Shown: positions 485 to 9,661 of the stretch, in pieces
Numbering within the stretch: position 1 is the first letter of the stretch
How the letters are laid out: every line of letters starts with the position of its first letter
Virus record (IMG/VR): IMGVR_UViG_3300037132_000058
Coordinates: 1 to 21,998 of that record
DNA length: 21,998 nucleotides
Direction: 5' to 3' (one strand)
Source of the DNA: a virus
Position numbers and translations under genes: made by a program
The notes under the pieces: model-generated
What the model was told of the DNA's origin: nothing
Database searches by the model: none
Seen by the model: only the letters and a program-made list of their open reading frames with translations

Positions 485-711
485 GTAAGAATAACGATAT
501 GGCCGAAGTAGGTTTCAACTATCTGGCCCTGGCCATCCTGATAAAGCGGCCCGGTGTCAACGGGAAAGAGAGCAAGTGTATCTCGAGGGCCTGCTGCGCC
601 TTGCGGTCTCACTCACTGTCAACCCCAACCATGCAGACCGGGCATGTAAATCACCAGGGCGGCATCGACCTGCTTAACCGGGGCGGCATACTGGGCGACG
701 CGGGACTGTAG
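481..711 (+). CDS. Small hypothetical protein, possibly frameshifted
   Basis: 76 residues from ATG 481, which overlaps the upstream stop as ATGA and suggests translational coupling. The first 22 residues (MSKNND...LALAILIK) look like normal protein. After about position 545 the reading becomes rich in Cys, Ser and Gly. Another frame there (about 564-677, ending TAA 675-677) reads more like protein, with EQVYLEGLLRLAVSLTVNPN. This suggests one indel near 545-565 has broken a gene that once ended at 677, or that two short frames overlap. No family is recognised. Confidence 0.4.
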   Translation: MSKNNDMAEVGFNYLALAILIKRPGVNGKESKCISRACCALRSHSLSTPTMQTGHVNHQGGIDLLNRGGILGDAGL

Positions 712-715
712 AAAA

Positions 716-738
716 TATCCGAACAAAAGTCCTATAAT
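716..738 (+). promoter_or_regulatory. Promoter-like site sharing a 12-base motif with the late promoter
   Basis: TATCCGAACAAA (716-727) is followed by a perfect TATAAT (733-738). The same 12-mer occurs at 2058-2069 with its -10 box (TAAAAT) at exactly the same distance of 17 bases. No good -35 box precedes this copy (tagaaa at 709-714), so an activator may be needed. The ATG at 747 lies nine bases after the box, so a transcript from here would be nearly leaderless. Confidence 0.45.
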
Positions 739-980: not shown

Positions 981-1028
981 GACGAATAACTTTTAACTAA
1001 CATCGCCTGACCAGGTTTAGGGCCGGAG

Positions 1029-1074
1029 GGCGGGAATCTCGGACTTGAAAGAGTCTGGGGTTTCCGCCTTTTTT
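1029..1074 (+). terminator. Strong intrinsic terminator
   Basis: Arms 1029-1045 and 1052-1068 pair over all 17 positions (four of them G-T wobbles) around a six-base loop (tgaaag), followed directly by T6 (1069-1074). It closes the unit ending with the gene at 747-980. The 980-1095 gap holds nothing else apart from the AAGGAGG ribosome site of the next gene. Confidence 0.85.
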
Positions 1075-1382: not shown

Positions 1383-1599
1383 CACACCGATATGGGACTG
1401 TCTCAACTTCGAATCTCAACTCTGCCTCTTCCGGTTCCAGCGAGACAACCATGACGCCGGATGGATGCCCAGGGAGCACCCTACCAGAGTTTCAACTGAA
1501 GGGACACGCGGAGGGCTTACATGCTCTGAGAACGTTCCCGCCATCATGCAGGCCACCCCCGAGCAGGTCAAGCACAACATGGGGGTGTTCAGGACGTGA
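1372..1599 (+). CDS. Hypothetical protein (75 aa), coupled to both neighbours
   Basis: ATG 1372 follows GGTGGA and begins before the stop of the upstream gene. The frame ends at TGA 1597-1599, which overlaps GTG 1596 of the next gene as GTGA. Such double coupling supports a real gene. The product has an N-terminal hydrophobic stretch (LFNTPIWDCLNF), a Gly/Thr-rich middle and a plausible helical end (ATPEQVKHNMGVF). No family is recognised. Other frames in this interval are also open, so the call is moderate. Confidence 0.45.
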   Translation: MLFNTPIWDCLNFESQLCLFRFQRDNHDAGWMPREHPTRVSTEGTRGGLTCSENVPAIMQATPEQVKHNMGVFRT

Positions 1600-2021
1600 C
1601 CGACTATTTCTCCCCCGGTGAGTTTCACTCATACCATCGCGACCAGGTTGTGTTTTTCCTGAATGAGTGCAGGGAAAGCTGGCCTCAGAAAGAGTCTAAC
1701 TACACCGACGCGCCGATCTCGCATCAATCAAGCAGCCACATGCCGGGGGAAACCGAGTCGCTAGTTCGTGCAGAGATAACCCAGCGCATCAGTATGTGCG
1801 GAGACTATGGCGTGCGGTTGTATGTCGAGATTATAGCCAAAGGGAAAGAGCGGCCCGTAGAATTTGATGACCTGTCGTCAGATTCCCGTTCTGCGGTCTC
1901 ATACGTCTGCGGATTATGCCGGCGCTGGCAGTCGTGCGAAAACTGTTTGGTTAAAAAATGCAAACGGCGCGGCCGGAAGCCATGCACGTTCGAGCAATGG
2001 ATAAACCATAGGTTGCGCTAA
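1596..2021 (+). CDS. Cys-rich putative zinc protein, candidate late regulator
   Basis: 141 residues from GTG 1596, which overlaps the previous stop. The C-terminal third contains C105-x2-C108-x5-C114-x2-C117-x4-C122-x7-C130 within a strongly basic stretch (VKKCKRRGRK), as expected of a zinc-stabilised nucleic-acid-binding module. The N-terminal two thirds show no motif. Family unknown. Position is suggestive: its stop lies just before a promoter (2051-2080) followed by a terminator-like hairpin (2091-2131), the order found in lambdoid phages for the Q antiterminator gene, late promoter and early terminator. Some Q proteins carry zinc clusters. I see no sequence match to Q, so a late-regulator role is inference only. 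Confidence 0.6.
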   Translation: MTDYFSPGEFHSYHRDQVVFFLNECRESWPQKESNYTDAPISHQSSSHMPGETESLVRAEITQRISMCGDYGVRLYVEIIAKGKERPVEFDDLSSDSRSAVSYVCGLCRRWQSCENCLVKKCKRRGRKPCTFEQWINHRLR

Positions 2022-2028
2022 AAAACAC

Positions 2029-2080
2029 TTGACAACTTCAGGCACGAGACTTGACTTTATCCGAACAAACGGACTAAAAT
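2029..2080 (+). promoter_or_regulatory. Probable late promoter with paired ACTTGAC repeats
   Basis: TTGACT (2051-2056), an 18-base spacer, then TAAAAT (2075-2080). The spacer carries TATCCGAACAAA (2058-2069), shared with the promoter-like site at 716. ACTTGAC occurs at 2027-2033 and again at 2049-2055, 22 bases apart (two helical turns), with a full TTGACA at 2029-2034. This may be an activator site or an alternative -35 box. Predicted transcript start is about 2087. Confidence 0.6.
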
Positions 2081-2090
2081 CTGATTTATA

Positions 2091-2131
2091 GAGTGGGAAG
2101 TCTAACCAAAGACGGCCCGCTCTTTCTTTTT
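2091..2131 (+). terminator. Promoter-proximal hairpin with T-run (terminator or attenuator)
   Basis: GAGTGGG (2091-2097) pairs with CCCGCTC (2116-2122, one G-T pair). Inside it GTCT (2100-2103) pairs with AGAC (2110-2113) around an AACCAA loop. TTTCTTTTT follows (2123-2131). The hairpin begins only a few bases after the predicted start at about 2087, so transcription would stop after roughly 40 bases unless antiterminated. It could also be the 3' end of a small RNA. Confidence 0.6.
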
Positions 2132-2415: not shown

Positions 2416-3171
2416 GTGCACCTTCTGGGTGACATACACCTCGGAACCGCCCACTGTGCGGAAGATAAGATAAAAGCCCGCGTCCAGCAAATCAAGGATG
2501 ACCCGTTCGCCCTGTGGATAGGGATGGGTGATTATTGTGAATTCATAAGTGCCCACGATCCGCGCTTTGATGGAAAATGTATTTCAAATTGGATCGACCC
2601 CGCCGAAATCGGGGAAAGTGAAATAGAGAAAATCGTCAACCTATTTCAGCCCATCCGTTCTAAATGCATCGGGCTATTAATGGGAAATCACGAGGACGCT
2701 TACAGGAAACATCAGGACGGAGACCCTCAAAAGCAAATCTGCAAGAGGCTGAACCTTCCAGACCTGGGGTATTCAGCCTTTGTCCGCCTGATTTTCCGCC
2801 GTAAGTCCGGTAATTGCAGGGAAGCGCATGAGTTTCTAGGGGTTGTGACTCACGGGGCGGGCGGCGGTATCACGCGCGGGGCCAAAATGACGCGCCTCGA
2901 AAGATTCATGGATAACTTCAACGCCAGGTGGTACGCTCACGGCCATGTCCATGACACTATTATATCAACCAAGCACTACATGGAACTCACAGAGGCGGGA
3001 AAGATAATCTCGCTCGAAAAGATCGGGGCTATGACCGGCTGCTGGTTTCGGGGATACACGCAGGGAATCCCGCCGTCATACGGAGAGATTAAGAATTATC
3101 CACCAAATGGCATCGGAGCACCGGTATTTATCTTTAACCCCCAAGAAAACAAAGTGAGTGTGACGGGGTAA
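2416..3171 (+). CDS. Calcineurin-type metallophosphoesterase
   Basis: 251 residues from GTG 2416. It shows the full metal-binding set: GDIH (D6, H8), GMGD (D39), GNHE (N91, H92), THG and HGHVH (H175, H177, H179). It should therefore hydrolyse a phosphoester with two divalent metals in the cytoplasm. The substrate is unknown. The same frame stays open upstream, and family members usually have a beta strand before GDIH. Residues encoded from ATA 2362 (IEVISRIVDYKSRSDTF) fit that strand, and ATA 2362 has GAGGT six bases before it, whereas GTG 2416 has no ribosome site. The true protein may thus be 269 residues. It overlaps the DUF4406 gene by one base. Pairing with a nucleotide-like hydrolase suggests nucleotide or cyclic-nucleotide handling (inference). 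Confidence 0.85.
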   Translation: MHLLGDIHLGTAHCAEDKIKARVQQIKDDPFALWIGMGDYCEFISAHDPRFDGKCISNWIDPAEIGESEIEKIVNLFQPIRSKCIGLLMGNHEDAYRKHQDGDPQKQICKRLNLPDLGYSAFVRLIFRRKSGNCREAHEFLGVVTHGAGGGITRGAKMTRLERFMDNFNARWYAHGHVHDTIISTKHYMELTEAGKIISLEKIGAMTGCWFRGYTQGIPPSYGEIKNYPPNGIGAPVFIFNPQENKVSVTG

Positions 3172-3482
3172 TGAAAATCATCTTTGTGTCCGGCCCCTAC
3201 CGCGCCCCGACAAAGCAGGGCATCGAAGCCAATATCTACGCGGCCATGCACGCGGCAAAAGACCTCTGGCGCTCTGGCTTTGCGGTGATTTGCCCTCATG
3301 CGAACACGGCAAACTTCGATGGAGTCGTACCAGATGAGATATTCCTTGAGGGCGATCTTGAGATTTTAAGACGCTGCGATTGCATATTCATGATGGCTGG
3401 CTGGGAATCGAGCGAAGGTTCCAAGGGTGAATATGAGCTGGCGCTCGCGCTCGGTCTGGACGTTTATTATAAAACGTCCTGA
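3171..3482 (+). CDS. DUF4406 / nucleoside 2-deoxyribosyltransferase-like protein
   Basis: 103 residues. The N-terminal strand and loop IIFVSGPYR (3-11), a central helix, and MMAGWESSEGSKGEYELA (74-91) match the DUF4406 group of Rossmann-like proteins related to nucleoside 2-deoxyribosyltransferases. By analogy the glutamate at 87 would be the nucleophile, with SGPYR around the substrate. Members are frequent in phages and their substrates are mostly undefined. It begins on the last base of the phosphoesterase stop. Its TGA (3480-3482) lies against the left end of the IS element, so the last residues may have been altered by the insertion, but the length is normal for the family. Confidence 0.8.
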   Translation: MKIIFVSGPYRAPTKQGIEANIYAAMHAAKDLWRSGFAVICPHANTANFDGVVPDEIFLEGDLEILRRCDCIFMMAGWESSEGSKGEYELALALGLDVYYKTS

Positions 3483-3487
3483 GAAAA

Positions 3488-3508
3488 CCCCGCATTTTAA
3501 TGCTGGGG
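3488..3508 (+). repeat. IS left-end hairpin
   Basis: CCCC-GCAT-TTTA-ATGC-T-GGGG: an eight-pair stem with one unpaired T and a four-base loop. It has the same architecture as the right-end hairpin and is the expected TnpA recognition structure on the single-stranded left end. Confidence 0.75.
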
Positions 3509-3523
3509 ATGAATCAGGGGCAG

Positions 3524-3553
3524 TTGACAAGCAATGTAGATAGTTGGTATATT
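3524..3553 (+). promoter_or_regulatory. Promoter of the IS element
   Basis: TTGACA (3524-3529), 18 bases, TATATT (3548-3553), a near-consensus housekeeping promoter. The predicted start falls at about 3560, on the tnpA ATG itself, so tnpA mRNA may be leaderless. Transcription would continue through tnpB and the right end into the terminase genes. Confidence 0.65.
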
Positions 3554-3559
3554 GTAAAC

Positions 3560-3949
3560 ATGGAATACGAACGTATAAGAAACCAAGTCTACCTCTTGAA
3601 CTTCCATTTAGTGTGGTGCCCAAAGCGTCGGCGCTCGGTGTTGACTGGCGGTATTAAAGATAGGCTGGCCGAGATATTGGCGCAGGTAGCCGTAGAGCAG
3701 AAGGTGAAGATATTAGCGTTAGAGGTAATGCCAGACCATTTACACCTTTTCGTTTCGTGCTACCCACAAATAGCGATTCACAAATTGGTCAAAGCGTTTA
3801 AGGGAAGAAGCTCCAACATGCTCAGGAAAGAGTTTCCCACACTGCTAAGGCTCCCTTCGCTCTGGACTAATAGCTACTTCGTGTCTACAGCAGGCAACGT
3901 ATCCAGCGAAACTATTAAGAAGTACATCGAAGCCCAAAGTAAAAAATGA
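3560..3949 (+). CDS. tnpA: IS200/IS605 Y1 HUH transposase TnpA
   Basis: 129 residues from ATG 3560. A frame from ATG 3500 exists but would begin inside the left-end hairpin, and the family's N-terminus matches MEYERIRN. The HUH metal site is H60-L-H62 in ALEVMPDHLHLFV, and the catalytic tyrosine is Y122 in IKKYIEAQ. Length and motifs are those of active single-domain TnpA, which cuts and rejoins single-stranded IS ends as a dimer, favouring lagging-strand DNA. The stop overlaps the tnpB start by ATGA. Confidence 0.9.
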   Translation: MEYERIRNQVYLLNFHLVWCPKRRRSVLTGGIKDRLAEILAQVAVEQKVKILALEVMPDHLHLFVSCYPQIAIHKLVKAFKGRSSNMLRKEFPTLLRLPSLWTNSYFVSTAGNVSSETIKKYIEAQSKK

Positions 3950-5076
3950 AACTGACCTATAGATATAGGGCCTATGCCAACAAAGAGACACTGGAACATG
4001 TGTCTCAATGGCTGGAGCTATGCCGTAGGCTCTACAATGTGGCACTGGCTAATCGGATAGAATGTTGGCAAGAAGACCACGAAACGGTATCTGGATATGA
4101 CCAAGCCAACGCTCTGCCCGATTTCAAAATAGTCCACCCCGAATATCAGAACGTAGGTTCCCAAGTGCTCCAGAATGTGCTAGAGCGACTGGATAAAGCC
4201 TACAAAGGATTTTTCCGCAGGGTGAAGGCTGGGGGCAAAGCAGGCTTTCCTCGGTTCAGGGGCAGGGGCTGGTATGATTCCTTCACCCTAAAGCAGACGG
4301 GCTGGAAACTTGAGGGGAATCATCTGCATATAGCCAAGGTTGGTATCTTCAAACTTCACCTTTCCCGCCCCATTGAGGGGGAGATTAAAATTGTCACCAT
4401 GCGCCGCTCTGCTACCGGTAAGTGGTACGTCTGCTTCTCTTGCGACAGCGTGCCGGAGAATAAACTTCCTGAGAATGACAAATCCATCGGCATAGATGTA
4501 GGCATAACCTCGATGGCAGTAGACTCTGAGGGACACAAGATAGATAATCCACGCTATTCCAACAAAAGCATGGCAGAACTGCGGCTAAGGCAGCGCAGGT
4601 TGAGCCGGAGGATTAAAGGCTCACAAGGAAGGAAACGAGCTCGGGTATTAGTAGCTAAGGCACACGAAAAGGTAGCCAGTCAACGCGCAGACTTTCTGCA
4701 CAAGGTAGCCAATTACTACATTCAAAGCTACGGCACGATTTACGTAGAGGGTTTGAATATCAAGGGGATGGTGCGGAATCACCATCTGGCAAGGCACATT
4801 CTGGATGGAGCTTGGGGGCAATTCTTCGGGCTGCTATCCTATAAGGCTGAGAGTGCCGGTAGGATACTGGTCAAAGTAGCGCCCCAAAATACCTCTCAAC
4901 TCTGTTCAGGATGTGGTATTAAAGTACCAAAGACACTAGCTGAGCGTATCCATTGCTGCCCTAACTGCGGATTAGTGTTAGACAGGGATGAGAACGCCGC
5001 TAGGAACATACTCAGTCGTGGGGTCGGGCAGACCCCTCAGGTGCTAACGTGGGAGGTTGCTCCGTGCGTAGCCTGA
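3946..5076 (+). CDS. tnpB: RNA-guided RuvC-like nuclease TnpB
   Basis: 376 residues. Domains in order: N-terminal OrfB/IS605 helix-turn-helix part (KLTYRYRAY start), a beta-rich recognition region, and a split RuvC nuclease with D184 in GIDVG, E268 in YVEGLN and D348 in DRDENAARN. A four-Cys zinc finger (C320, C323, C338, C341) sits between the second and third RuvC motifs. All catalytic residues are present, so it should be an active reRNA/omegaRNA-guided DNA nuclease that helps retain the IS at its donor site after excision. Its 3' end lies against the right-end hairpin, which typically forms part of the guide RNA scaffold. The last codons overlap the GTG from which terminase small subunit may now start. 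Confidence 0.92.
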   Translation: MKLTYRYRAYANKETLEHVSQWLELCRRLYNVALANRIECWQEDHETVSGYDQANALPDFKIVHPEYQNVGSQVLQNVLERLDKAYKGFFRRVKAGGKAGFPRFRGRGWYDSFTLKQTGWKLEGNHLHIAKVGIFKLHLSRPIEGEIKIVTMRRSATGKWYVCFSCDSVPENKLPENDKSIGIDVGITSMAVDSEGHKIDNPRYSNKSMAELRLRQRRLSRRIKGSQGRKRARVLVAKAHEKVASQRADFLHKVANYYIQSYGTIYVEGLNIKGMVRNHHLARHILDGAWGQFFGLLSYKAESAGRILVKVAPQNTSQLCSGCGIKVPKTLAERIHCCPNCGLVLDRDENAARNILSRGVGQTPQVLTWEVAPCVA

Positions 5077-5126
5077 AGAATCCCCGCTCTTTAGAGCCGG
5101 GGAGTGTCAAGGAAACTACGATAACC
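4900..5126 (+). ncRNA. Probable omegaRNA (reRNA) of TnpB
   Basis: In this family the guide RNA is made from the 3' end of tnpB through the right end, with the guide taken from the flank just outside the element. Here the scaffold would end with the 5082-5102 hairpin and GTGTCAA, and the guide would begin near 5111 (gaaactacgataacc), the start of the terminase small-subunit gene. The boundaries are inferred from family knowledge, not seen directly. Confidence 0.4.
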
Positions 5127-5792
5127 CCAAAGCTCACAATAAAACAGGCTCGTTTCTGTGTCGCCTACTTCAAAGGCGGCTGCTCGAACGCTACTGAGGC
5201 GGCTTTAGCTGCTGGATATAAACCCAAGACAGCGAGAGCGATAGCTTCGGAAAACTTGACAAAGCCAAACATAATTCAAAAAATAAGCCACCTACGCGCC
5301 GCCGTTGATACTTCCGCCGTTGCATCTGTCCAGGAGCGCAAGGAAATACTCACTCAAATCGCCCGCGGCAAGCTCATAGACTTCTGTGAGTGCGGCGAGG
5401 ACGGCGTCTGGTTTAACATCGGGCCTGAGACGCTTCGAAGCGCGGCCCTCGCATCCGTTACCTCAAAGACTGTCATAGGCAAAGATGGGGCGGATGACGC
5501 CTTGTTTATCCATGCGGAGCTTCGTAATCCTGTGGACGCTATCAAGGAACTCAACAAGATGGACGGAGTCTACCCCTCCGAGTCGATAGACATAACATCC
5601 AAGGGTAAGCAAATCAATACCTCGATCACACAGATAAACATAGGAGAAATCGATGTCTCAAACGCCCTCGCTATCCTTGTCAAAGCGGGGGCCGTCCGGC
5701 TGGGAGCCACTGAAGACGGTCAACCCCCGTCTGAACAAGTACATACCTCACAAGCCGACGGACAAACAGTTAGCCTTCCTGCTACTGGATAA
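5064..5792 (+). CDS. terS: Terminase small subunit, N-terminus fused to the IS right end
   Basis: LTIKQARFCVAYFKGG...NATEAALAAGY and KPKTARAIASENLTKPNI match the helix-turn-helix region of the Terminase_2 small-subunit family, which binds phage DNA and starts packaging. No ATG exists upstream. GTG 5064, inside the IS, has GGGAGG (5051-5056) seven bases before it and would add about 19 IS-encoded residues (242 aa in total). GTG 5049 is possible too. Family members usually begin with a few residues such as MTPKLT-KQ. Here that position is ATA 5121, with AAGGA (5109-5113) seven bases upstream, giving 223 aa. The IS therefore replaced or displaced the native start region. The last 140 bases overlap TerL. 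Confidence 0.82.
   Translation: MRSLKNPRSLEPGSVKETTITPKLTIKQARFCVAYFKGGCSNATEAALAAGYKPKTARAIASENLTKPNIIQKISHLRAAVDTSAVASVQERKEILTQIARGKLIDFCECGEDGVWFNIGPETLRSAALASVTSKTVIGKDGADDALFIHAELRNPVDAIKELNKMDGVYPSESIDITSKGKQINTSITQINIGEIDVSNALAILVKAGAVRLGATEDGQPPSEQVHTSQADGQTVSLPATG
5082..5102 (+). repeat. IS right-end hairpin
   Basis: CCCC-GCTC-TTTA-GAGC-C-GGGG: the same 21-base design as the left end, with one unpaired base. It is followed by agtgtcaa, the usual right-terminal sequence of such elements. Confidence 0.75.
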
Positions 5793-7008
5793 CCAAGAGG
5801 TGTTTTACGGCGGGGCGGCTGGCGGTGGCAAGTCCGACGCTCTTTTAATGGCGGCTCTCCAGTACGTAGACATCCCGGGATATGCGGCCATCATCTTCCG
5901 TAAAAACTATTCAGAACTCACACTCCCCGGCGCACTACTTGACCGCTCCCGTGAGTGGTTGTCTAAATTCCAAAGCCAGGGTGTTGTTTGGAAAGAGCAG
6001 GAAAAAACTTGGCACTTTCCGAGCAGCGCGACGATCTCATTCGGCTACCTCGATAACGCCACGGACATGTACCGCTACCAGGGCGCGGAATTCCAGTTTG
6101 TAGCCTTCGATGAATTGACCGAGTTTTCCGAAAAAGCCTTTAAATTCCTCTACTCCCGGTTACGCCGCCTCGAAACATCTGAAATCCCCTTGCGTATCCG
6201 GGCCGCGTCCAACCCCGGCGGTGTAGGTCATGACTGGGTAAAGCAGCGGTTTATTACGGAGGGTCTTGAAAAGGGTCGTATATTTATACCGGCACGGCTA
6301 GACGATAACCCCTACCTGGACAGGGGGTCCTACACTCAGAGCCTCAATCAGCTTGACCCGATAACCCGACAGCGGCTTCTTCTGGGCGACTGGTCCGCCA
6401 GAGACACGGGAAACTTATTCAAGCGCGAGTGGTTTGACATCGTAGAGGCTGCGCCCGCTGGCATCAGGTGGATAAGGTATTGGGACATGGCCGCCACGGA
6501 GGCCACAAAGGGCAAAGATCCGGACTATACCGCAGGATGCAAGATAGGCAGGGACGGACAAGGGAAGTTCTATATAGCCGACATGCGACATCTCAGGGCA
6601 TCTCCCCAGGGCGTCGAAGCTCTTGTAAAACAAACAGCCATACTCGATACTACCGCAACCAAAATCTACATCGAACAGGAGCCGGGCGCGGGCGGTAAAA
6701 CATTAATCGATTACTACATCCGCCAGCTCGCTGGTTACTCGATCACCCCAGACAGGCCCGCTACCGACAAAGTTACGAGGGCCGCTCCGGCATCATCCCA
6801 GGCCGAGGCTAAGAACATATTACTGATACGGGGCGCGTGGATTGGCGACTTCCTAGACGAGGTTGAAGCCTTTCCCAACGGCTCACACGATGACCAGGTT
6901 GACACGATGAGCGCGGGGCTGGGGATACTTACAGGGACCGCTGATTTACTCGCCCTCTGGCAGGGAGCGGCCAAACTTATGACGGACAAACAGGAGCAAC
7001 ATGGCTGA
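5653..7008 (+). CDS. terL: Terminase large subunit
   Basis: 451 residues. ATG 5653 follows AGGAGA (5642-5647) at a good distance, although it lies 140 bases inside terS. The ATPase has Walker A GGAAGGGKSD (K60, S61) and Walker B VAFDE (D153, E154), then a SNPGG coupling motif. The RuvC/RNase H-like nuclease has D278 in WDMA, E341 in YIEQE and D413/D414 in HDDQVD. This is the complete packaging motor and headful or cos nuclease. With TerS and the portal it pumps DNA into the prohead. Length and motifs are normal. Confidence 0.95.
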   Translation: MSQTPSLSLSKRGPSGWEPLKTVNPRLNKYIPHKPTDKQLAFLLLDNQEVFYGGAAGGGKSDALLMAALQYVDIPGYAAIIFRKNYSELTLPGALLDRSREWLSKFQSQGVVWKEQEKTWHFPSSATISFGYLDNATDMYRYQGAEFQFVAFDELTEFSEKAFKFLYSRLRRLETSEIPLRIRAASNPGGVGHDWVKQRFITEGLEKGRIFIPARLDDNPYLDRGSYTQSLNQLDPITRQRLLLGDWSARDTGNLFKREWFDIVEAAPAGIRWIRYWDMAATEATKGKDPDYTAGCKIGRDGQGKFYIADMRHLRASPQGVEALVKQTAILDTTATKIYIEQEPGAGGKTLIDYYIRQLAGYSITPDRPATDKVTRAAPASSQAEAKNILLIRGAWIGDFLDEVEAFPNGSHDDQVDTMSAGLGILTGTADLLALWQGAAKLMTDKQEQHG

Positions 7009-8764
7009 TTTTAGACTATATACTGCAAAGCCCGAAACGCCCGCCTTGTGGCTCCCGTCTAACGTTGGGTTCGGTCCTGGTGCGCCTATCAGCCCCTCTG
7101 CCCCCGGCGAGAAGCCCCGCGCCAATGACTATGCGGTCTCGCGCAACATGCAAATCATGCCCCGCGCTACCGAGGCGCGGGCGGTTACATATGACCAGAT
7201 GAGGGGACTGGCGCAGATTGACGGCATCCTACGGACTATCATCGAGCAGCGCAAAGACGAGCTGAAGGGGCTGGATTGGCAGATAGCAACCCGCAAAGAG
7301 TTTGCCGACGAGGATTATTCCACCGAACAGAAACAGGGTCAAAAGTTCTTTGAGCGCCCCGATTTAGAACATACGTTTGACCAGTGGCTCGGCATGCTGG
7401 CCGAAGACCATTTTGTCGTTGACACCCCGGCTCTCTACAAAGAGCGAGACCGTATCGGGCGTTTCCGCTCCCTGCAAATAGTGGACGGCACTGGGATACT
7501 CGTACTGGTGGATGACACGGGGCGTGTTCCGGCTCCGCCCGAGATGGCTTACGAGCAAATCATCAAGGGTATGCCGCGCACGTCTTATATTAAACCCGTT
7601 CCCGGCGATAATAACGGACAATATGAACTTTACTACAGGCCATATAACACTCACTCAGACGGGGTGTATGGCTTCTCGCATGTGGAGTCAATCGCCCAGA
7701 TTCTCAACATCGTTATCCGGCGCAATGTGAGCTTCCTTGAATGGTTCCGCTCGGGCAACGTTCCCCAGGGCATCGTTCAACTTACAGACGATACTATGAA
7801 AGCCATGACGCCCGATCAACTTCCCCAATGGCAAGCTGTGATTGATACTTTGTTATCTGGTGATCTGGCCCAGCGGTCGAAGATGCACGTCCTGCCCGGT
7901 ACGGGCGGCGTCCAAATGCTCCAACAGCTCCAGTTTGATGGCCTGTTCGACGAATGGCTGGCCCGCGTAGAATGCGCCTGTTTCGGTGTCTCTCCCGCCC
8001 CTTACGTTCGCATGATGAACCGGGCCACCGCCGAAACTCAAGAGGAAGCGCGCCAGGAATATAGCCTTATTCCCCTACTTAATTTCTTCAAGTCGTGGTT
8101 TGACCAGATTCTTTGTGACGACCTTGGCCTCCCCATGCTTGAGTTTATCTGGACGCCGGGCGCGAATTACAACAAAGAGCGCTCGGATATGAATGACCAG
8201 ATGCTGTCAAAGGCAATTAAGACCATCGACGACATCCGGGGGGAGCAGGGGTTACCTCCCCTTGATAACGGCATGGGGGCGATTCCCCTTGTTTTCACAG
8301 GTTCAGGGCCTATCCTGCTGGCCGATGTCCTGTCCGGCAAGTTCCAGCCCGGAGCGGTTCAGGGACAGCAGGGCGCCCAAATAGGCCAGCCGCAGGGTTT
8401 ACCCGCCTTATCTATCGCGCCGCCGGATGATGAGCGGGAATCGGATTACTACCCCGAGCTATCCCTGAAGTCCGAGCTGGACGCATGGGAGAAATTTACC
8501 CTTAACCGGCTGGGTAAAAAATCCTTGAGGGAATTTGAGACGAAAACTATCCCCGCCGAAATGAAGCAGGCCGTCTCTGTGAAACTGGCTGGTGCGTCTA
8601 CTCCCGAGGCGGTAAAAGCTTTTTTTGACGGCGTGCGCACGGGTTTAGGGAGAAGGAACCGCACACCCGCAGTGGGGGGCTCTCTTGACCAGCTTATCGG
8701 CTCCTATGAGGACGTGCTAAAGACCGCAATGGAAAGGGCGAAAGCTACCGTCGAGGCGGCTTAA
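7001..8764 (+). CDS. Portal protein
   Basis: 587 residues, starting eight bases before the TerL stop with GGAG upstream. Segments such as IDGILRTIIEQRKDELKGLDW near the N-terminus, a stem/wing region with FSHVESIAQILNIV and FGVSPAPYVR, and a Gln/Pro-rich linker fit large tailed-phage portals. Position after TerL confirms the role. The protein forms the dodecameric ring at one capsid vertex through which DNA enters. The C-terminal 120 residues (after about 465) form a separate charged helical domain (ELSLKSELDAWEKF), longer than in many portals and perhaps contacting the minor head protein. No membrane segments. Confidence 0.9.
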   Translation: MADFRLYTAKPETPALWLPSNVGFGPGAPISPSAPGEKPRANDYAVSRNMQIMPRATEARAVTYDQMRGLAQIDGILRTIIEQRKDELKGLDWQIATRKEFADEDYSTEQKQGQKFFERPDLEHTFDQWLGMLAEDHFVVDTPALYKERDRIGRFRSLQIVDGTGILVLVDDTGRVPAPPEMAYEQIIKGMPRTSYIKPVPGDNNGQYELYYRPYNTHSDGVYGFSHVESIAQILNIVIRRNVSFLEWFRSGNVPQGIVQLTDDTMKAMTPDQLPQWQAVIDTLLSGDLAQRSKMHVLPGTGGVQMLQQLQFDGLFDEWLARVECACFGVSPAPYVRMMNRATAETQEEARQEYSLIPLLNFFKSWFDQILCDDLGLPMLEFIWTPGANYNKERSDMNDQMLSKAIKTIDDIRGEQGLPPLDNGMGAIPLVFTGSGPILLADVLSGKFQPGAVQGQQGAQIGQPQGLPALSIAPPDDERESDYYPELSLKSELDAWEKFTLNRLGKKSLREFETKTIPAEMKQAVSVKLAGASTPEAVKAFFDGVRTGLGRRNRTPAVGGSLDQLIGSYEDVLKTAMERAKATVEAA

Positions 8765-8827
8765 ATGGATGACACGCTGTCTAAACTCTCCCAGCAGATG
8801 CAACTTGCCGCGGCGCAGGCGGATTAA
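8765..8827 (+). pseudogene. Truncated duplicate start of the minor head gene
   Basis: A 20-codon frame begins on the base after the portal stop and ends at TAA: MDDTLSKLSQQMQLAAAQAD. The next gene begins MNEILASLSKNMQLAASQ. Ten of the first 18 residues agree but only five codons are identical. This looks like the original 5' end of the minor head gene, cut off and replaced by a diverged copy downstream. The spacer 8828-8926 is AT-richer and holds no gene. Confidence 0.55.
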
Positions 8828-8926
8828 GTTAGTTGTAAGTTCGTAGCGACGGACTTTATCCAACCCAAAAATTCTAGTTTGCTCATCGTAAACTTTGCAC
8901 GATTGATGGGCTAAAAGTCAAATGAA

Positions 8927-9661
8927 ATGAACGAAATATTGGCCAGTTTATCCAAGAATATGCAATTAGCGGCGAGTCAATTTCTTGTATTGGCCTACAC
9001 TCTGGGCCGCAACAAAGCAGCTAAGAAGTACGGCATCCTTCCCTGGGGCGAGATCGACAACGTAAATATCGCCATGCTGATTAACCGGCACGCGCAGGAA
9101 CTGGCGGCGAGTATGGCCGCGCTCGAACTCCGAGCTTCACAGGGCGAGCCTCTTAAAGACCTGCTTGACGGGCTGATTCACCGGGTAGGTTCGTGGTCAT
9201 GGGTACTCTCGCCTGCTCTCGCGCTGGGGCTTGCGGCTTATGTTGATACCGCGCGCCGGGACATCGCCACACAGATACAGGTTGAGACCGTCCCACCAGG
9301 CAAGCCTCCTATTTCAGGTGCCGTGGGCGTACTGCCCGCAGCGAATGATATAGGAATCATCTGGTATACCGCCGAGGATAAAAGGGTCTGCCCGAAGTGT
9401 TTATATCTGGCCGGACGGTGGTTTGACGCGAAGCAGGCCTACGATTTAGCCCGATCAATCCACATTGGGTGCAGGTGCTCAGCTTTTTTCGACATCGGTA
9501 TGCCGGATGAGGCGCTAGTCGGCCCGATCCCCGGGTACAAGCCTGGCACCGCTCAAGATGTTTACAGGGATTTGCACGTTGACGGGCTGGCATCAGCAAG
9601 AACTCGCCGCGCCCGGTCAATCATCGAAAAGGGAAAACCCAAAGAATACGCGAGGGCATGA
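8927..9661 (+). CDS. Minor head protein (Mu F-like head morphogenesis)
   Basis: 244 residues. The diagnostic part is C-terminal: AEDKRVCPKCLYLAG (C155, C158) and IHIGCRC (H179, C182, C184), the Cys/His pattern of Mu gpF / SPP1 gp7-like head morphogenesis proteins, which associate with the portal and help DNA exit or head assembly. The N-terminal half is helical. The gene normally follows the portal, as here, but a 162-base interval containing a truncated duplicate start separates them. No strong ribosome site precedes ATG 8927 (taaaagtcaa). Its first 20 codons are AT-richer than the rest, consistent with a recombination joint. Confidence 0.85.
   Translation: MNEILASLSKNMQLAASQFLVLAYTLGRNKAAKKYGILPWGEIDNVNIAMLINRHAQELAASMAALELRASQGEPLKDLLDGLIHRVGSWSWVLSPALALGLAAYVDTARRDIATQIQVETVPPGKPPISGAVGVLPAANDIGIIWYTAEDKRVCPKCLYLAGRWFDAKQAYDLARSIHIGCRCSAFFDIGMPDEALVGPIPGYKPGTAQDVYRDLHVDGLASARTRRARSIIEKGKPKEYARA

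Follow-up and report, generated by a model that had tools for sequence, protein, structure and literature searches.

In a viral contig of 21,998 bp (IMG/VR virus record IMGVR_UViG_3300037132_000058; the window analysed here is this whole stretch), we found a gene at 1596 to 2021 that is followed by a sigma-70-like promoter, an intrinsic terminator, and the late genes, and we found the same order in many distantly related phages and prophages of Dehalococcoidia. The arrangement is probably a late-gene switch of Q type (we put its probability at roughly three in four), in which the gene at 1596 to 2021 would supply the antiterminator. The most likely reading is that this gene represents a new, sequence-unrelated class of Q-type antiterminator; we infer antitermination from the architecture of the locus. 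Dehalococcoidia are an anaerobic lineage, organohalide respirers among them, whose phages have to our knowledge been little studied.

Read from its left end, the contig carries an HNH/NinG-like endonuclease gene (98 to 484; phrog_5034, E = 1e-12), several small genes, and then the Q-like gene (1596 to 2021, plus strand, GTG start, 141 amino acids). Behind it on the same strand come the promoter (2051 to 2080), the terminator with its T-run (2090 to 2131), a 284-nt late leader (2132 to 2415), and the first late-side gene, encoding a metallophosphoesterase (2416 to 3171; PF00149, E = 5e-5). A DUF4406 gene, an IS200/IS605 element, the terminase small and large subunit genes, and more late genes follow. 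The large-subunit gene (5653 to 7008, plus strand), with the small-subunit gene just upstream, starts the packaging genes that we propose to be controlled. In homologues of the metallophosphoesterase gene, the start lies further upstream (ATG in locus L021, TTG in L004). The corresponding codon in the study contig and its relative L002 is ATA (region 2353 to 2415), so translation may begin at this ATA, or the open reading frame (ORF) may have been given too late a start at 2416. The IS200/IS605 element (tnpA plus tnpB; 3467 to 5110) is 100% identical over 1,644 bp to that of L002 (3513 to 5156). It occupies a site at the DUF4406 gene end, ahead of terS, in the study contig and one upstream of the Q-like gene in L002, and such identity at different sites in two related phages indicates very recent transposition between phages.

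The promoter consists of a -35 hexamer TTGACT (2051 to 2056), an 18-nt spacer, and a -10 hexamer TAAAAT (2075 to 2080; 10/12 matches). Judging by the distance to the -10 hexamer, transcription is predicted to start at 2087 to 2090 (plus strand). The hairpin (A2090 to T2123) begins 9 nt after the -10 hexamer, placed like the tR' terminator of phages 21 and Sf6. Its stem of 8 bp (one G-U pair) and a further 4 bp, divided by a 2-by-2 internal loop (AA/GG), carries a 6-nt loop at the tip, and the hairpin runs into the T-run TTTCTTTTT (2123 to 2131; TTTCTTTTTG is exact in L021). Its folding energy is -19.4 kcal/mol, compared with -8.1 ± 2.4 kcal/mol for shuffled sequences (z = -4.7; 0/200 shuffles equally stable). 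A simple terminator scanner overlooked it because of the internal loop. The predicted leader RNA ending at the T-run would be about 44 nt long. A preliminary description of this DNA had noted TTGACT-N18-TAAAAT followed by a hairpin and T-run, with the hairpin about four bases after the transcript start; the coordinates hold, and the hairpin falls at about +1 to +4. In the plus-strand promoter scan, no further promoter-like site was found between 2080 and 3524. The terminator lies 3' of a good promoter, with no other plus-strand promoter-like site before the late genes, which argues for the Q-type reading.

The promoter spacer contains a 12-mer, TATCCGAACAAA (2058 to 2069, plus strand), with a second exact copy at 716 to 727, each 5 nt upstream of a -10-like hexamer. 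The second copy sits before TATAAT within a promoter-like site found by the scan (TAGAAA-N18-TATAAT; 709 to 738, plus strand), upstream of a strong intrinsic terminator (1025 to 1072, plus strand; detected by scanning and folding) and of the Q-like gene. We tentatively regard TATCCGAACAAA as a candidate DNA element for the Q-like protein, and if the copy at 716 to 727 were also a target, a positive loop on the Q-like gene would result. This second target promoter stays tentative because the TATCCGAACAAA site is missing upstream of the homologous ORF in L002. No repeated binding element was evident across the family loci. TAnnnT-like hexamers can be read 2 to 9 nt after the -10 hexamer in some loci; a clear sigma-dependent pause element was not established. 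The terminator at 1025 to 1072 has a similar element in L002: in the surrounding region (980 to 1088; L002, 5307 to 5413), the strong hairpin is preceded by CATCGCCTGACCAGGTTTAGG..CCGGAGGGCGGGAATCTCGGACTT, a stretch that is better conserved than the sequence around it. In L004, CCTGACCAG is likewise found upstream of the terminator (at about 4229).

The gene at 1596 to 2021 is not a chance ORF and belongs to a real gene family, which has 15 members, the study-contig protein plus 14 more from viral contigs and Dehalococcoidia genomes. Close searching gave L002 (93%), L021 (45%), and L004 (39%), and terminase-guided searching located the members of L038/L040 and L023. The L064 member came from the upstream flank of a terminase match in a Dehalococcoidales metagenome-assembled genome and matches the family profile at E = 1e-14. 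A profile search of genomes found the family in 7/156 Dehalococcoidales genomes (one, L081, a fragment only) and in 6/393 Dehalococcoidia genomes (one, L077, part of a larger ORF), and in a sample of 400 Chloroflexota genomes it matched three only, each already among those Dehalococcoidales genomes. L077 and L081 were left out of the family-locus counts. Given these matches, the probable host range of the family is Dehalococcoidia, and the host of the study phage itself is by extension probably a member of the Dehalococcoidales (Chloroflexota).

The family shares the conserved core (W/Y)Y.P.EI.YTR.QVLWVL.N...L.EG.WP....SGY.D ... AE...RL...G.DG ... AL.YVSG.RRR..SY..W. The predicted parts are an N-terminal helix, a conserved WP..(S/N)Y.D loop, and a core resembling sigma region 4. 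The study-contig protein has a basic, Cys-rich C terminus, where a zinc-like insert (C-x2-C-x5-C-x2-C-x4-C-x7-C) precedes the last helix. This insert is restricted to the study-contig protein and its close relatives, and the L064 and L068 proteins have a Cys cluster at the N terminus instead. Searches with family members gave no Pfam or NCBIfam match and no significant PHROG match, the cultured phages searched contained no relative of the protein, and a sequence search of the PDB returned nothing significant. In a Dehalococcoidia genome, part of a 432-codon ORF (L077; G457 C17) resembles the family core; the best PHROG match of this divergent copy is phrog_79, "anti-termination protein Q-like" (E = 0.05), a point in favour of the Q-type reading.

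An automatic downstream scan found a sigma-70-like promoter and an intrinsic terminator after the gene in 11/14 nonredundant family loci. Under a strict fixed criterion, the pair followed 9/13 family genes, compared with 2/165 other genes of the same contigs (P = 9e-11), 4/317 intergenic gaps of a wider set (P = 4e-12; one of the four positive gaps is the L021 module itself), and 4/520 dinucleotide-shuffled stretches. Several of the loci had been found without reference to DNA signals, L064 by the terminase search and L067 to L071 and L078 by the protein profile, and the recurrence of the order in loci fetched in this way supports the Q-type architecture suggested in the preliminary description. 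The conserved feature is the gene-promoter-terminator architecture and not the DNA sequence. Between the end of the -10 hexamer and the hairpin lie 9 nt in the study contig and L086, about 4 to 11 nt in L021, 13 nt in L023, 24 nt in L064 and L084, 28 to 38 nt in L087, L085, and L078, and about 114 nt in L083; the L004 signal is weaker. In L021, the module lies about 890 nt from the Q-like gene, with two genes in between. L038 has the promoter, and its hairpin folds no better than shuffles. Neither promoter nor terminator was found at L089, which is near a contig end, or at L088, a lone chromosomal copy where no module is expected. The Q-type reading is weakened by the unconvincing hairpin of L038, the absence of the module from L089 and L088, and the long spacings in L021 and L083.

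Behind the module lies a large terminase subunit of the study-contig type (TerL) in L021, L023, L038, and L064 and other terminase-like ORFs in L083, L084/L085, L078, and L004. The Q-like gene itself is upstream of TerL in the study contig and the same four loci and upstream of the terminase-like ORFs in L083, L084, L085, and L078. Since the module precedes several unlike terminases, it is associated with late control and not with one packaging cassette. Individual loci also have features of their own. In L064, a perfect palindrome, GTGACAAATTTGTCAC (about 8322 to 8337), overlaps the stop codon of the Q-like gene just 5' of the promoter, and two opposite-strand genes (8431 to 9160), resembling a moron insertion, separate the terminator from terS, so that late transcription would cross them antisense. 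The terminase large subunit gene of L004 (8974 to 10017) has its Walker A motif (GAGK) split by an intein-like sequence, and a tandem array of a 24-nt unit, taggctctaacctgtgagctatcg, lies upstream of the terminase genes in L020 (about 640 to 870).

If the locus works as a Q-type switch, RNA polymerase would start unaided at the constitutive-looking sigma-70-type promoter (2051 to 2080) and halt at the terminator (2090 to 2131), leaving the short leader RNA. The roughly 40-nt RNA mentioned in the preliminary description would be this terminated leader and not a rival to the Q-type reading. The product of the last early gene (1596 to 2021) would bind DNA inside the promoter through its sigma-region-4-like helix-turn-helix and transfer onto the polymerase as the latter leaves the promoter. 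Polymerase loaded in this way would resist the leader terminator and later ones, and the late genes would be transcribed. By analogy with 21Q, the N-terminal helix and the WP..(S/N)Y.D loop may sit in the RNA exit channel and block hairpin formation.

Structure prediction is compatible with such a protein. The AlphaFold2 (AF2) model of the study-contig protein (pLDDT, 65) had no useful structural match. The model of the L038 member (pLDDT, 79) is helical at the N terminus and contains, besides a loop that was modelled poorly, a sigma-region-4-like helix-turn-helix. A Foldseek search with it placed sigma factors and 21Q at the top, all at E values of about 1, with 21Q entries at ranks 2, 10, 14, and 20. 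In VIA-align, 21Q (6p18_Q) gave a weak match to the N-terminal helix and core (Z = 5.5 over 86 residues) and 6jny_B a Z of 5.2, while the top rows were sigma factors, with region 4 reaching a Z of 6.4 over about 70 residues. A BFVD search returned weak sigma-like matches only. The modelled fold is therefore compatible with a 21Q-like protein, the match being too weak to serve as proof, and the Q-type reading is weakened by Z scores of 5 to 6 that tie with or fall below those of ordinary sigma region 4.

The same model would fit an activator or sigma-like role, in which the protein, like other late activators of phages, recruits polymerase to the late promoter and the hairpin ends the early operon or damps leaky late transcription. 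The sigma factors in the top VIA-align rows point this way, and a hairpin about 70 nt past the gene stop is where an ordinary early terminator might be found. However, most family promoters have a consensus -35 hexamer (TTGACA) and would not need an activator, and a terminator 3' of the promoter would shut off the same genes that the protein was meant to activate. Many loci also keep the order, and its equivalent in Sf6 is annotated as a unit of Q, late promoter, and tR'. We therefore consider the activator unlikely.

The study contig, L021, and L086 have in common the sequence CTAAAAT, the inner stem AAGTCT..AAAGAC (GTCT/AGAC), and a similar T-run, and in all three the hairpin starts right at the expected RNA start. 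The hairpin, for which the preliminary description had proposed searching relatives, has counterparts of this kind in L021 and L086, whereas the other family loci keep the order and not the sequence. The hairpin pattern occurs at two places in the 156 Dehalococcoidales genomes, and one of the two is a locus of the present type. Among viral contigs, the exact DNA pattern recovered only two relatives, both already known, and a looser pattern yielded no new family loci among the matches listed. This hairpin subtype may reflect common descent or a constraint on the RNA, and the inner stem in three divergent loci leaves open that the RNA could have a role. The locus might encode a further Q family of Dehalococcoidia phages, with no detectable sequence relation to 21Q, lambda Q, or 82 Q, in which the nascent 5' hairpin is both terminator and part of the recognition signal, its inner stem GGAAGTCT..AAAGAC having been kept in three loci whose proteins are divergent. 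We regard this as rather improbable; if true, such a system would combine DNA-loaded (Q) with RNA-loaded (nut/put) antitermination.

We attach a still lower probability to a functional small RNA of about 44 nt as the main product, with terminator read-through incidental. Such an RNA would suit the strong hairpin at the 5' end, the similarity of inner stem and T-run in the study contig, L021, and L086, and the near absence of the motif from other Dehalococcoidales genomes. Yet the remaining family loci keep the order without the sequence, which means that conservation does not lie in the RNA sequence, and the Rfam search of the study contig gave no match of any kind. The study contig and L002 are 100% identical around the hairpin. 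We rejected this identity as a sign of constraint: a block of about 1.1 kb (1707 to 2819) differs between them by only two mismatches, with flanks well below such identity, and represents a recent exchange. A breakpoint falls within the Q-like gene (at about codon 37), and the two proteins have different N termini and the same putative DNA-binding half. The exchanged block carried this half together with the promoter, terminator, and leader, and by moving together in this way the protein and its target site would stay matched.

It is very improbable that an ordinary early-operon terminator merely stands beside a chance promoter match. Promoter-like matches on their own are not rare (9 found in 6 kb, with 4.2 expected), but the combination exceeds chance after this gene family: it follows 9/13 family genes, compared with 0.8% of the shuffled stretches and 1.3% of the other gaps between genes. 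Put-type antitermination, offered in the preliminary description beside the Q type, would have the nascent hairpin RNA alone render polymerase termination resistant without a protein and would suit a hairpin at the very 5' end of the predicted transcript, but we give it almost no weight, as the single hairpin is a terminator (GC stem plus T-run) and not an elongation signal, and most loci pair the module with the protein family and not with the hairpin sequence.

Q proteins are known as three families of lambdoid phages without detectable mutual similarity, and lambda Q has only its helix-turn-helix in common with sigma region 4 and 21Q (PMC7171158). 21Q looks like a sigma region 4 against which its helix H1 packs, and H2 with its flanking loops makes a ring that inserts into the RNA exit channel (PMC6606751). 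Our family has no significant sequence similarity to any of the three, as the preliminary description had anticipated in calling the protein not recognisably Q. The 21Q model (PF06530, Phage_antitermQ) had no match in the study contig at an E value of 1e-3 or in any family member at an E value of 10, and hmmscan of the members at the latter threshold gave no match to PF03589 (lambda Q) or PF06323 (82 Q). In hhalign, 21Q-type proteins matched the N-terminal region at 7.9% probability (E = 0.004), which fell to 0.2% with a smaller alignment, so that profile comparison, negative to inconclusive, does not place the family in 21Q. This lack of significant similarity to known antiterminators weakens the Q-type reading. 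A literature search on antitermination in Dehalococcoides prophages found no relevant paper in the library searched.

The closest counterpart in anatomy is the late-control region of phages 21 and Sf6, whose annotated order our loci match. In Sf6 (annotated as phage 21-like), the end of the Q gene is followed by TTGACA-N18-CATAAT and a tR' hairpin 8 nt after the -10 hexamer, compared with 9 nt in the study contig. In both cases, the gene in the Q position is the last early gene, an N18 late promoter lies behind or overlaps its end, and the late genes follow; the predicted sigma-region-4-like core with an N-terminal helix would be a further likeness. Unlike phages 21 and Sf6, our family has no PF06530 match, a probable host in Chloroflexota instead of Proteobacteria, and a Cys-rich insert in some members, and no direct-repeat binding element of the 21/Sf6 kind was seen in it. 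Lambda Q and 82 Q are alike in genome position and promoter-then-terminator logic but unlike in their Pfam families. HK022 put RNA resembles the present leader in being structured and lying close to the 5' end of its phage transcript (PMC9378689), whereas here a terminator hairpin, a T-run, and a protein gene occur together, with no sign of an RNA acting alone.

If the Q-type reading is correct, either a sigma-region-4-like scaffold gave rise to this late switch more than once, or the switch is much older and more widespread than detectable sequence similarity indicates. The gene-promoter-terminator order would then be a sequence handle for late-gene control in phages without annotated regulators, and the family loci would be natural variants for testing how Q-type proteins load. 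Q proteins and AlpA of Pseudomonas aeruginosa bind between the -35 and -10 hexamers and suppress termination ahead of the first gene (PMC6606751, PMC7969949, PMC9371919), and AlpA is unrelated to Q by sequence (PMC7969949, PMC9371919). By published description and not by sequence, AlpA resembles the present system in that a DNA element lies within the promoter and the first target gene is preceded by an intrinsic terminator, but it regulates lysis genes of a chromosomal locus. Since sequence-unrelated Q families and AlpA exist, failed membership in 21Q makes it less probable that our protein is a 21Q, not that it works like Q, and Dehalococcoidia phages and prophages add another sequence-unrelated family with Q-like promoter-terminator anatomy.
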